Virus record (IMG/VR): IMGVR_UViG_3300005515_000010
Location: 1-47,207 of that record
From: a virus
Strand: one strand, 5' to 3'
DNA length: 47,207 nucleotides
Numbering within the stretch: position 1 is the first letter of the stretch; each line of letters begins with the position of its first letter. The notes under the pieces were generated by a model that saw only the letters and a program-made list of their open reading frames with translations, had not been told where the DNA came from and searched no databases. A program made the translations under genes and the position numbers. Shown here piece after piece: positions 10,140 through 47,207 of the stretch.

Positions 10140-10847
10140 TCAGTGCCTTTTCGCTGACCAGATGACGCGCCCGATGATCCGGAGCGAGCTCCGCGGGAAG
10201 ACGCGAACCGGATCCTGATGGTTGCGGTTGTCCGATATCACCTGCACCATGCCGTTGCCCGCCGGCGCCAGCCGCTTGATCGCGCCGGCCCCTTCGATCG
10301 TGAGCGCATAGATCCCGTCGAACCGGTGAAGCTCGCTCTCCTCGCGGTTGATCATCACCTTGTCGTGACTGCCGATCGTCGGCTCCATGCTGTCGCCGAT
10401 CCCCTGCCCGATCAGCAACAGATGCGCCGGCGTGCGCGTGATCGCGGCGAGTTCGCCAGGGTCGAACCCGTAGGGCTCCTCCTCGATCCAGTCCTCGAGG
10501 TCGGTGCCGTCGCCCATGGCGAGCTCAAGGTTGACGCGGCGCAGCTGCACCGCGCCCACATCCTCATACGCGCTGCGCGTCGGCAGCTGGTCGGGCGCCC
10601 GCTTCATGTCGAGCGGCCGGTGCTCGTCGCGCTGGCCCGACGGCTTGGTGAAATTGCCTTTGCGGATAAGCTCGTCGGGCTCGCATTCCAGCGCCGCCGA
10701 TATGCGGTCTATCCAGTCCTGATTGAGGCGCCGCGCACCGCGCTCGAGCTTGCCGAGATTGTTGACGGTCGTGCCGATCGCCTCCGCAAGCTGAGCCTGC
10801 GTCCAATCCTTCGCCTTTCTGAGGTCCGCTATCCGGTTGTTTGCCAT
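10140..10847 (-). CDS. CI-like repressor, XRE HTH plus S24 peptidase domain
   Basis: The 235-residue protein has an N-terminal XRE helix-turn-helix (WTQAQLAEAIGTTVNNLGKL, about residues 15-34) and a C-terminal LexA-like S24 domain with the Ser-Lys pair in IGDSMEPTIG (S153) and GAGAIKRL (K191). It is divergent from the cro-like gene across several TGCCC-N5-GGGCA operators and should silence both early promoters. No Ala-Gly or Cys-Gly dipeptide occurs in the linker (residues about 65-150), the usual self-cleavage bond, so RecA-stimulated cleavage is doubtful. The ATG at 10847 begins MANNRIADLR; the open frame runs far upstream through the control region but is not coding there. Confidence 0.93.
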   Translation of the reverse strand: MANNRIADLRKAKDWTQAQLAEAIGTTVNNLGKLERGARRLNQDWIDRISAALECEPDELIRKGNFTKPSGQRDEHRPLDMKRAPDQLPTRSAYEDVGAVQLRRVNLELAMGDGTDLEDWIEEEPYGFDPGELAAITRTPAHLLLIGQGIGDSMEPTIGSHDKVMINREESELHRFDGIYALTIEGAGAIKRLAPAGNGMVQVISDNRNHQDPVRVFPRSSLRIIGRVIWSAKRH

Positions 10848-10857
10848 GCGTTTCTTG

Positions 10858-10872
10858 TGCCCCGTGTGGGCA
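10858..10872. promoter_or_regulatory. Operator just upstream of cI
   Basis: TGCCC-N5-GGGCA eleven bases before the cI start codon. Occupancy would probably stop cI transcription or translation start, giving autoregulation. Confidence 0.7.
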
Positions 10873-10908
10873 CCTTTCGTATAGAGGACAGCTTGGGCAC
10901 TTTCTGGC

Positions 10909-10937
10909 TTGCATGAGGTGCCCATATTGGGCATATC
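10909..10937 (+). promoter_or_regulatory. Rightward early promoter (pR-like)
   Basis: TTGCAT (10909-10914) and CATATC (10932-10937) are separated by 17 bases, and the spacer holds an operator (10919-10933), the same design as at pL. The hexamers are weaker than at pL. If correct, the transcript would start at or next to the cro ATG at 10944, a nearly leaderless message. Confidence 0.55.
10919..10933. promoter_or_regulatory. Operator in the rightward promoter
   Basis: TGCCC-ATATT-GGGCA lies within the presumed pR spacer. Additional GGGCA half-sites at 10895-10899 and 10940-10944 flank it on the same face of the control region and may be weak accessory sites. Confidence 0.75.
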
Positions 10938-10943
10938 TTGGGC

Positions 10944-11147
10944 ATGACGTTGCTCGACCACATCAAGGCCCGCGGAATCTCCGTGCCAGAAGCTGCGGCG
11001 GAGCTCGACGAGGCCGAGAGCACGATTCGCAAGATCGCCTATCGTCAGCGCCAGCCCAGCCTTCCGCTCGCGGTCAAGATTGCGACGTGGTCGGGCGGCG
11101 CCGTCACCGAGGCCGACCTCCTGCTCGAGGGGGTCGCCGCCACATGA
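10944..11147 (+). CDS. Cro/YdaS-like HTH regulator, 67 aa
   Basis: A 67-residue helix-turn-helix protein (VPEAAAELDEAESTIRKIAY about residues 14-33) of the size and position of Cro, divergent from cI. Such proteins bind the shared operators and favour the lytic course. The ATG at 10944 lies within an operator half-site; a TTG two codons earlier is less likely. Assignment rests on the HTH and synteny. Confidence 0.8.
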   Translation: MTLLDHIKARGISVPEAAAELDEAESTIRKIAYRQRQPSLPLAVKIATWSGGAVTEADLLLEGVAAT

Positions 11148-11162
11148 TCGATCGTCAGTTTT

Positions 11163-11237
11163 CGCAGGGTGGGGAAGTCCGGTCATCCCGCTTGGCTCAT
11201 AACCAAGAGATCGCGGGTTCGAATCCCGCTCCTGCAA
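11163..11237 (+). tRNA. tRNA(CAT) with initiator-like features
   Basis: A complete cloverleaf can be folded: acceptor 11163-11169 with 11230-11236, D-stem GGGA/TCCC, anticodon stem CTTGG/CCAAG with anticodon CAT at 11198-11200, T-stem GCGGG/CCCGC with TTCGAAT loop, discriminator A. Position 1 is C opposite A72, the unpaired end that marks bacterial initiator tRNA, and D-stem pair 11:24 is purine:pyrimidine (G:C), also initiator-type. Only two of the three G:C pairs expected at the base of the anticodon stem are present (29:41 is T:A). CCA is not encoded (CCC follows). It lies directly after the cro-like gene in the early rightward transcript. Elongator Met or Ile(CAU) are alternatives. Confidence 0.85.
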
Positions 11238-11244
11238 CCCGTTT

Positions 11245-11274
11245 CCGGAGCGTGTCGCCCCCCCGGCGCTCCGG
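11245..11274 (+). other. Hairpin after the tRNA, 8-bp stem
   Basis: CCGGAGCG (11245-11252) pairs with CGCTCCGG (11267-11274) around a 14-base loop. It lies seven bases beyond the tRNA and may mark its 3' end for processing or slow the polymerase. No T-run follows. Confidence 0.6.
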
Positions 11275-11277
11275 GCA

Positions 11278-11323
11278 GGCACGGCGGGGCTCCCTCCCCC
11301 CAACCCCTCGGCCCCGCCGTGCC
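11278..11323 (+). terminator. 13-bp GC stem downstream of the tRNA, possible terminator or processing hairpin
   Basis: GGCACGGCGGGGC (11278-11290) pairs perfectly with GCCCCGCCGTGCC (11311-11323) around a C-rich 20-base loop. The following bases are T-rich but without a continuous run, so intrinsic termination would be partial. It separates cro-tRNA from the downstream early genes, where a regulated terminator would make sense. Confidence 0.5.
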
Positions 11324-11382
11324 GTTCGCTTTCTTGTCCCTGTTCCATGTGAAACGTCTGCGCGGCGGCCGGGAGCTTTCCC

Positions 11383-11832
11383 ATGGAAATGATGCCCGAA
11401 TTTTCCAACGACGCTGTGAAAGTCCTGATCCGGGACACGCTTCGCCTGTTCGTCGGCTTCGGCCGGCGCATCAGCTGGGCGGATCTCGCCGTCGCGACCG
11501 GCGACAGGGAAGGGACGCTGCGCAGCTATGTCGAGGCCGACGGCCCGCTGATGCCGCTCGACGTCTTCATGCGCGTGTTCGCCGTGCTACCGCCCGAAGC
11601 GTTCGGCCGGTGCGCCAGCCGCATGGGTTTCAGCACCTCGCCGCTCGACGTCGATGACGCCGCCACCGTGCGCCGCGGCATCGCCGCCTGCGCGCGCTTT
11701 GCCGCGAACGGTGCCGAAGCTTTGGAGGATGGCGTGCTCTCGCACACCGAGCGGGCCAGCCTCGCCGACGACGCCAGCAATATCATCCCCATCATCCATG
11801 CCATCGCGGGGAACGGTTCGGGCCCGCGCTAG
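11383..11832 (+). CDS. Possible early regulator, 149 aa
   Basis: Residues about 10-85 of this 149-residue protein (LIRDTLRLFVGFGRRISWAD, then VATGDREGTLRSYVEADG) resemble a helix-turn-helix region, and the gene occupies the place of CII-like regulators after cro. GGGAG lies eight bases before the ATG. It is related in style to alphaproteobacterial prophage proteins of unknown role. A regulatory function is inferred from position and the HTH-like segment only. Confidence 0.7.
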   Translation: MEMMPEFSNDAVKVLIRDTLRLFVGFGRRISWADLAVATGDREGTLRSYVEADGPLMPLDVFMRVFAVLPPEAFGRCASRMGFSTSPLDVDDAATVRRGIAACARFAANGAEALEDGVLSHTERASLADDASNIIPIIHAIAGNGSGPR

Positions 11833-11898: not shown

Positions 11899-12168
11899 AT
11901 GAGCGAAGCTTCGGTTTCGGACAATCAGCTGCGTCTGTTCGTCGAGCGCATCGAGCGGTTGGCTGAAGAGGCCAAGGGCATTTCCGACGATATCCGCGAC
12001 GTCTACCTCGAGGCGAAGTCGCAGGGTTACGATCCCAAGATCATGCGCGCCGTCATCCGGCTGCGGAAGATGCCCGTGCACGACCGCAAGGAAATGGAAG
12101 CGGTGCTCGAGGTCTATAAGGACGCGCTCGGCATGCAGCTGAGCCTGCCGCTCGAGCGTGCGGCTTGA
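11899..12168 (+). CDS. GapR-family (DUF2312) DNA-binding protein
   Basis: The 89-residue product matches the DUF2312/GapR family throughout: RLFVERIERLAEEAKGISDD, then DVYLEAKSQGYDPKIMRAVI, then RLRKMP. Caulobacter GapR is a nucleoid protein that binds overtwisted AT-rich DNA and helps topoisomerases during replication. A phage copy next to replication genes may serve its own replication or bias host chromatin. TAGGAG lies upstream of the ATG. Family assignment is firm, the phage role inferred. Confidence 0.88.
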   Translation: MSEASVSDNQLRLFVERIERLAEEAKGISDDIRDVYLEAKSQGYDPKIMRAVIRLRKMPVHDRKEMEAVLEVYKDALGMQLSLPLERAA

Positions 12169-14419: not shown

Positions 14420-14598
14420 TCAAGTTGCCGTTGCGCCTCGCCCTTCTGTTTTCCGGCCGACCTGCGGATCCGCGGCCGGCGCCGATCGTTCGCGACGAGG
14501 ACGGCCGGTTCCTCTCTCCGCACCGCGAGGCCGTGCGCGCGAAGTGCCGCGAGCAATGCGCCAAGCTGGGCATTGACGTGCCGGAGGCGCTGCGATGA
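14416..14598 (+). CDS. Hypothetical basic protein, 60 aa
   Basis: A 60-residue basic protein with RDEDGRFLSPHREAVRAKCR near the middle, coupled by ATGA overlaps on both sides. Short REDGRF-type segments like this occur in many phage proteins without assigned role. Unknown function. Confidence 0.6.
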   Translation: MIKLPLRLALLFSGRPADPRPAPIVRDEDGRFLSPHREAVRAKCREQCAKLGIDVPEALR

Positions 14599-15833
14599 CG
14601 CGCGTAGTTGACAATCTTTTCGCCCAGGGCGCCCGAATGGTGAGCGAGGAAGCAATCGAGCTGACGCTCGCCTCGCTCCGCGCCTATTGGGGCGAGCACG
14701 AGCATGTTGCCCTTGCGTGGTCCGGGGGCAAAGACAGCACGGCCGCGCTGACCCTCATCGTTCATCTGATCGAGGCCGGAGAGCTGCCGCGACCGAAGCG
14801 CCTGTACGTCTTCTATGCGCAAACCCGGCAGGAGCTTCTCCCGATCGAGGCCTCGGCCCGTCTTATCATCGACAAGTTGCTCGAGCGCGACTGGATCGAA
14901 TTTCAGGAGGTGATGGCGCCGCTCGACAAGCGCTTCTGGGTTTATATCCTCGGCCGGGGCGTGCCGCCGCCGAACAACAACACGCTCCGTTGGTGCACCC
15001 GGCAGATCAAGGTCGACCCGATGACGGCCGCGTTAGAAGCCGCGCTTGACGGAATCGACGGGTCGGCGCTGATGATAACCGGCGTCCGCCAAGGCGAGAG
15101 CGCGGTGCGCGACGGTCGTATCGCCATGTCATGCGGCAAAGACGGCGCGGAGTGCGGGCAAGGCTGGTATCAGAAGGTGCTGCCCGAGGCGAAGGGCATT
15201 CGCGGCCGGCTCGCGACCCTCGCCCCGCTCCTGCATTGGCGCGTCTGCACCATTTGGGATTGGCTCAAGGTCTATGCGCCGCAGCCGGAGTTCGGCGGCT
15301 GGCCGACCGCGATCCTCGCCGATGCCTATGGCGGCGATGATGCCGTCGAGAAGAGCGCTCGCACGGGCTGCGCGAACTGCCCTCTCGCCGAGGATGATAC
15401 CGCGCTGCAGAACATCATCGCGATGGACTATTGGTCTTACATCGCGCCCCTGCGCGAGCTCCGCGAGCTGCATCGCTGGCTGCGCGAACCGGCCCAGCGT
15501 ATCAGGAAGGCGGGCGCCGAGAAGCTCAAGAGCGGGAAGATCGCGAAGAACCCGCAGCGCATGGGCCCGCTCACCTTCGCGGCTCGCCTTCACGCCCTCG
15601 ACACCATCCTCGACGTCCAAGCGCGCATCAATGCCGAGGCCGATCGGCTCGACCGTCCCCGCATCGACATCATCAACGCCGAGGAAGAGGCCCGCATTCG
15701 CGAGCTGATCGCGGCCGAGACGTGGCCCGACGGTTGGACCGGTGACGAGCCGAGTGCCGCGCTGTGGCTCGACCGGGTCAATCAGGATGGCAGTATTGAG
15801 CCGCTGCTGTTCCGGGACCTTGTCGGAACATGA
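14595..15833 (+). CDS. DndC/PAPS-reductase-like sulfurtransferase-fold protein
   Basis: The 412-residue protein belongs to the adenine nucleotide alpha-hydrolase superfamily. The ATP pyrophosphatase loop SGGKDST is at residues 43-49, followed by LRWCTRQIKVDP (C134), the loop GVRQGESAVRD and the Cys pair RTGCANC (C259, C262). With C180 or C187 these could ligate an iron-sulfur cluster, as in DndC, which delivers sulfur in DNA phosphorothioation. No dndA, B, D or E gene is visible. Its place between two DNA methyltransferases and the replication gene suggests DNA modification, but PAPS-reductase-like chemistry is also possible. Confidence 0.85.
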   Translation: MTRVVDNLFAQGARMVSEEAIELTLASLRAYWGEHEHVALAWSGGKDSTAALTLIVHLIEAGELPRPKRLYVFYAQTRQELLPIEASARLIIDKLLERDWIEFQEVMAPLDKRFWVYILGRGVPPPNNNTLRWCTRQIKVDPMTAALEAALDGIDGSALMITGVRQGESAVRDGRIAMSCGKDGAECGQGWYQKVLPEAKGIRGRLATLAPLLHWRVCTIWDWLKVYAPQPEFGGWPTAILADAYGGDDAVEKSARTGCANCPLAEDDTALQNIIAMDYWSYIAPLRELRELHRWLREPAQRIRKAGAEKLKSGKIAKNPQRMGPLTFAARLHALDTILDVQARINAEADRLDRPRIDIINAEEEARIRELIAAETWPDGWTGDEPSAALWLDRVNQDGSIEPLLFRDLVGT

Positions 15834-47182: not shown

Positions 47183-47207
47183 CTTTCACGGCGAAAACAC
47201 GGGTTCG
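47183..47207 (+). other. tRNA-Glu(TTC)-like 3' half, probable attachment-site remnant
   Basis: CTTTCAC looks like the anticodon loop of tRNA-Glu with anticodon TTC; then come GGCGA, a short variable region and CGGGTTCG, the start of a T-arm. Bases before 47183 cannot pair with GGCGA, so no complete tRNA exists on the visible side. This is what remains at a prophage end when integration uses the anticodon-loop-to-3' part of a tRNA gene. The sequence is cut by the window edge. Confidence 0.55.

Follow-up and report, generated by a model that had tools for sequence, protein, structure and literature searches.

Initiator tRNAs encoded by phages are already known from phage T5 and from prophages of Sinorhizobium meliloti (PMC12429752). 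Phage T5 possesses a tRNAfM(CAU) annotated as 'initiator tRNA fMet' (AY543070), with a mismatched 1:72 pair (UxU), A11:U24, A29:U41 and G30:C40. The phiLM21-like prophages of S. meliloti have four tRNA-fMet(CAU) genes (PMC12429752). The tRNA-Met of Pseudomonas phage D3 shows C1xU72, A11:U24 and three G:C pairs. According to one published analysis, phages as a rule do without a tRNA-fMet of their own where this tRNA is the target of a nuclease (PMC10264068).

The window, i.e. the whole stretch of 47,207 nucleotides of viral DNA that was analysed (IMG/VR record IMGVR_UViG_3300005515_000010), contains a phage tRNA that was compared with these systems. The features referred to below are:

1 to 27, + strand: 3' end of tRNA-Glu and flank, left attachment end
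100 to 1230, - strand: tyrosine integrase, relatives of which lie beside tRNA-Glu genes
10140 to 10847, - strand: CI-like repressor with HTH and S24 peptidase (phrog_4, E 2.6e-27)
10938 to 11147, + strand: cro-like HTH repressor, reading frame from TTG at 10938 with an in-frame ATG at 10944 (phrog_35, E 3.5e-8)
11163 to 11237, + strand: initiator-type tRNA(CAU) with C1xA72 and no encoded CCA (cmscan, ARAGORN, layout)
11244 to 11275, + strand: hairpin 1, following the tRNA, with a stem of 10 bp and a loop of 12 nt that contains CGCCCCC
11278 to 11323, + strand: hairpin 2, with a stem of 14 bp and a C-rich loop of 18 nt (z -4.0), conserved in relatives whether or not they have the tRNA
11383 to 11832, + strand: CII-like activator (weak phrog_101 match)
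11899 to 12168, + strand: GapR-like DNA-binding protein (PF10073, E 7e-33)
47183 to 47207, + strand: fragment of a host tRNA-Glu(TTC), forming the right attachment end

Like the T5 molecule, the tRNA of the window is phage encoded, has a CAU anticodon and is mismatched at 1:72. The T5 tRNA differs in its D-arm and is part of a large tRNA array that is not beside cro. The D3 tRNA has the same D-arm class as that of the window; however, it carries C33 in its loop and is located not beside cro but, together with three further tRNAs, downstream of ninG. The S. meliloti prophages resemble the window, by their description, as temperate phages of Alphaproteobacteria that integrate at other tRNA genes and have a tRNA classed as initiator (PMC12429752).

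In a cmscan of the whole window RF00005 matched exactly 11163-11237 on the + strand with 60.8 bits (E 8e-11), well over the gathering score of 29 bits, and no second RF00005 match above threshold was found in the rest of the window. ARAGORN called a tRNA-Met(cat) at 11162-11240. The gene starts 15 nt past the stop codon of cro and is laid out as CGCAGGG UG GGGA AGUCCGGUCA UCCC G CUUGG CUCAUAA CCAAG AGAUC GCGGG UUCGAAU CCCGC UCCUGCA A. In standard numbering the acceptor stem contains C1xA72, G2:C71, C3:G70, A4:U69 and G5:C68, followed by A73. The D stem pairs G10-A13 with U22-C25, hence G11:C24, and the anticodon stem (C27 U28 U29 G30 G31 with C39 C40 A41 A42 G43) encloses the loop CUCAUAA. At the 3' end the DNA reads CCC and not CCA. 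All stems are paired, and L016, the nearest relative, has 4 differences over the 75 positions of its tRNA, each of them unpaired or pair-preserving. This indicates that the phage tRNA is more than a chance arrangement. When the transcript was folded as a single RNA, long-range pairs were preferred over the cloverleaf; folding of a single sequence bears neither way on the tRNA. A CAU anticodon with A73, the lack of a strong 1:72 pair and a purine-11:pyrimidine-24 pair (G11:C24 here, A11:U24 in the hosts) are the marks of a bacterial initiator tRNA, and all were present. C1 opposite A72 and the purine:pyrimidine 11:24 pair had been pointed out in the preliminary description, and the layout bears out both. 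Good support for its assignment to the initiator type comes from positions 1:72, 11:24 and 2:71/3:70 and from the anticodon stem, and also from the host comparison and the family statistics.

Among named genomes the closest terminases were those of Novosphingobium, Sphingobium and Sphingomonas, which makes a sphingomonad the most likely host. The host-side initiators, nine unique sequences, came from genomes of Sphingomonadales and of a few other Alphaproteobacteria, those behind loci L190-L216 and L263-L283. All nine have C1xA72, A11:U24, A29:U41, G30:C40 and G31:C39, that is, only two G:C pairs plus an A:U pair at 29-31:39-41. The phage tRNA (U29:A41, G30:C40, G31:C39) likewise has two G:C pairs and a U:A pair. 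That only two of the three terminal G:C pairs are present had been noted before and is correct as a fact, but it is probably not a defect: as the host-side initiators share A29:U41 and two G:C pairs, the missing third pair is, judged from these sequences, the norm in this host order. The altered efficiency of initiation that had been derived from it is not supported for the same reason. Nor is the idea that the tRNA favours many GTG/TTG starts, as nearly all listed phage genes, CI included, start with ATG; two start with GTG, and cro with TTG or the in-frame ATG.

Phage tRNA and Sphingomonadales initiator also have the loop CUCAUAA in common, whereas the pair at 29:41 is A:U in the host and U:A in the phage. 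The host initiator further differs by A11:U24, C13:G22, another D-loop, another outer anticodon stem and an encoded CCA. The D-arm of the phage tRNA departs from it by A13:U22 and an extra C in the D loop, and the three outer pairs of the anticodon stem all differ between the two, each change being compensated. Over 60 comparable positions the identity of the phage tRNA was 41-44 with host initiators, 32-35 with host elongator Met and 30-32 with host Ile2. The comparison that the preliminary description had proposed thus places the phage tRNA nearer to the host initiators than to either of the others.

The distribution of the phage D-arm was searched with the pattern GRGA...GGTCA UCYC together with a CAU anticodon, in a strict version that additionally fixed part of the anticodon stem and in a relaxed version that left the anticodon stem and 1:72 free. 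The strict signature was found in 47 viral-contig stretches, and in none of 396 Sphingomonadales and none of 385 alphaproteobacterial genomes. The relaxed one was found in at least 119 viral stretches; 299 Pseudomonadota genomes, the phylum to which the bacterial searches were confined, gave three matches, none folding as a tRNA. Motif matches that were not plain cloverleaves (51 of 155; part non-tRNA, part with an acceptor-stem bulge) were excluded. Among the matches listed, 71 unique clean viral copies, that of the window included, were mismatched at 1:72 in 50 cases, with A:U in 18, G:U in one and G:C in two. G:C was present at 30:40 in 58 and at 31:39 in 46 of these 71. The class statistics for 11:24 are not independent, because Y24 was part of the search pattern. 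For comparison, only 14 of 612 unique non-CAT tRNAs of viral loci were mismatched at 1:72 and 413 (67%) had G:C or C:G. In phages with three CAT tRNAs (L222, L236, L237) the member of the D-arm class was the one without G1:C72; T5 has a similar trio, one of which is the annotated initiator tRNAfMet. These sequences suggest that the phage tRNA belongs to a widespread, virus-specific set of initiator-type tRNAs. Two further subgroups of viral CAT tRNAs were observed, one with an extra nucleotide in the 3' acceptor strand that forms an apparently conserved bulge (L013, L220, L223, L301, L314 and others) and one with the anticodon stem CCAUC/GUUGG and a conserved U30xU40 mismatch (L299, L322, L328, L338 and others).

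The order CI - cro - tRNA - CII was present in the window and its relative L016, for which CI is seen on the same contig in L014. Mesorhizobium phage vB_MseS-P1 has this order too, as does the Rhizobium RR1-A group (L005 and L239, with parts in L256 and L383). The tRNA of the L487 group is of a second type, described below, and has a CI-like repressor on one side and a CII-like gene on the other; no cro was identified in this group. Four phage groups thus have a tRNA of the initiator type between the CI/cro and CII genes. The CII-like genes of the other modules match CII clearly, unlike that of the window, which is followed by GapR and DNA methylases. The tRNA had been described as lying directly after cro in the early transcript. 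This holds for its position, and the arrangement recurs; to early expression only the position points. A search of 10830-11450 for sites resembling sigma-70 promoters gave none, a negative result that carries no information in this host. Most records in which a related cII goes with another immunity region do not have the tRNA, and no copy was found in 80 prophage loci with a related terminase. This indicates that the tRNA is an accessory gene and not essential. As separate observations, the tRNA of vB_MseS-P1 (L002, 5007-5081) is unannotated, and the CDS that overlaps it (gp13, 'transcriptional repressor') gave no PHROG match and may be spurious. The early region of the window also encodes a PAPS-reductase-like protein (14595-15833) with a very strong match to phrog_12882 (E 3e-216).

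A prophage in genome G105 (L413) carries the same module as the window, with 84% identity in cro and 60% in cII. The tRNA at the same site has a different body, with C1xA72, three G:C pairs and the loop UUCAUAC, hence U32 and C38. It has the acceptor and T arms in common with the tRNA of the window, but not the D and anticodon arms. A pattern that fixed the anticodon arm of this second type was found in 42 viral stretches, and none of the 34 unique tRNAs had G:C at 1:72. The persistence of an open 1:72 pair at this site across two tRNA bodies points to an initiator function. The tRNA of L018 (3223-3298), which is mismatched at 1:72 and 2:71, shares its 3' half with that of the window (28/30) but not its 5' half (25/40), and may be a recombinant or decaying copy.

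Downstream of the tRNA the two hairpins (11244-11323) constitute a candidate conserved RNA element. Their start-to-start spacing before cII is a constant 34 nt in the window, L016, L017 and L018. In several relatives among the loci compared (L016, L018, L017, L400, L398) the second hairpin has a stem of 13-15 bp and a C-rich loop of 15-18 nt. In L017, which is without the tRNA, the hairpin stems have a different, compensated sequence.

Taken from sequence comparison, the gene probably encodes a working initiator-type tRNA that adds to or replaces the host pool during infection (probability about 0.7). The tRNA would be transcribed within the early lytic, rightward transcript and then cut out of it, with CCA added by the host. 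MetRS would charge it and, after formylation, IF2 would use it at start codons; the host initiator pool would as a result be enlarged or replaced. Possible benefits are a supply for strong early translation and a substitute for a host initiator under attack.

It has to be considered whether the molecule serves codon supply as an elongator tRNA-Met or a lysidine-modified tRNA-Ile2, since its anticodon is CAU, its loop CUCAUAA is also that of host Ile2 and the majority of phage tRNAs are elongators. C4 and C5 are determinants for lysidine modification. They are present in host Ile2, whereas the phage tRNA has A4:U69 and G5:C68 in place of C4:G69 and C5:G68. In addition, host elongator Met and Ile2 tRNAs all have G1 and C11:G24, in contrast to the C1xA72 of the phage tRNA, and both are further from it in identity than the initiators are. 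Codon supply is therefore improbable. It is about equally unlikely that the tRNA acts outside translation, mainly in processing or in the control of termination between cro and cII. The strong hairpins after the tRNA and the recurrent cro-cII arrangement would suit such a role, as would the place of the tRNA, which is that of nutR-tR1 in lambda. However, the hairpins persist where the tRNA is missing, tRNAs of the same class are situated elsewhere in other phages, including in tRNA arrays, and the initiator identity positions are kept. The phage is temperate, with a tyrosine integrase and a single tRNA, which brings to mind tRNA-dependent lysogeny, a known phenomenon that includes Ile2-CAT (PMC10865867): integration would break the host tRNAfMet gene and the copy of the phage would compensate. 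Yet the record ends are pieces of tRNA-Glu(TTC) and the integrase relatives adjoin tRNA-Glu, which argues for integration at tRNA-Glu and not at a gene of the same isotype. Moreover, repression in the lysogen would be expected to extend to a tRNA that lies behind cro. A remnant of a tRNAfMet gene as attachment site was considered and rejected, as the longest identical stretch in common with host initiators was 11 nt and cmscan gave no other tRNA fragment. Compensation for a broken gene is thus very improbable.

A more specific form of the preferred reading, an initiator-type tRNA that joins or replaces the host pool, is that the phage keeps it as a means of withstanding a VapC- or AtaT-like defence, by which the host would cut or modify tRNAfMet. 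This is a sub-case and does not exclude the general form. Enteric VapC toxins cut tRNAfMet between A38 and C39 (PMC4105405), a VapC of the alphaproteobacterium Bosea also cuts or degrades tRNAfMet in E. coli (PMC8522696), and phage tRNAs have been reported to evade tRNA-directed defences (PMC10264068, PMC11555353). By analogy, evasion of a tRNAfMet-cutting defence is plausible. The compensated differences in the outer anticodon stem and the C38 and U32 of the alternative tRNA at the same site agree with it. On the other hand, a change at or near the cut site was found in the L413-type tRNA (C38) but not in that of the window, which retains the host-type loop CUCAUAA and the A38-C39 bond; the same loop is present in 65 of the 71 class copies among the matches listed. 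The avoidance of tRNA-fMet by phages that one paper holds to be general (PMC10264068) also speaks against it. Protection when the host tRNAfMet is attacked would be the likeliest specific benefit, though as the particular reason for keeping the gene we rate it somewhat below an even chance. More tentative still, and on the doubtful side, is the idea that the cro-cII interval of alphaproteobacterial temperate phages is a recurrent site for a virus-specific initiator tRNA, of which two versions are exchanged there, one with the host-like loop and one whose U32/C38 loop alters the site of VapC cutting, so that the supply of a protected initiator would be a fixed early lytic step against initiator-directed defence.

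Judged by the papers searched, the existence of a virus-specific class is new, as are its breadth and its recurrent place between CI/cro and CII genes. Members of the class are often annotated merely as tRNA-Met or not at all, and initiator-type tRNAs in many viral contigs sit uneasily with the statement that phages avoid them (PMC10264068). Phages seem to bring their own tRNA for the start of translation more often than has been said. If this is confirmed, infection would involve a contest over the initiator tRNA of the host, and small temperate phages with a copy next to cro would offer a simple system for testing what phages gain from their tRNAs.
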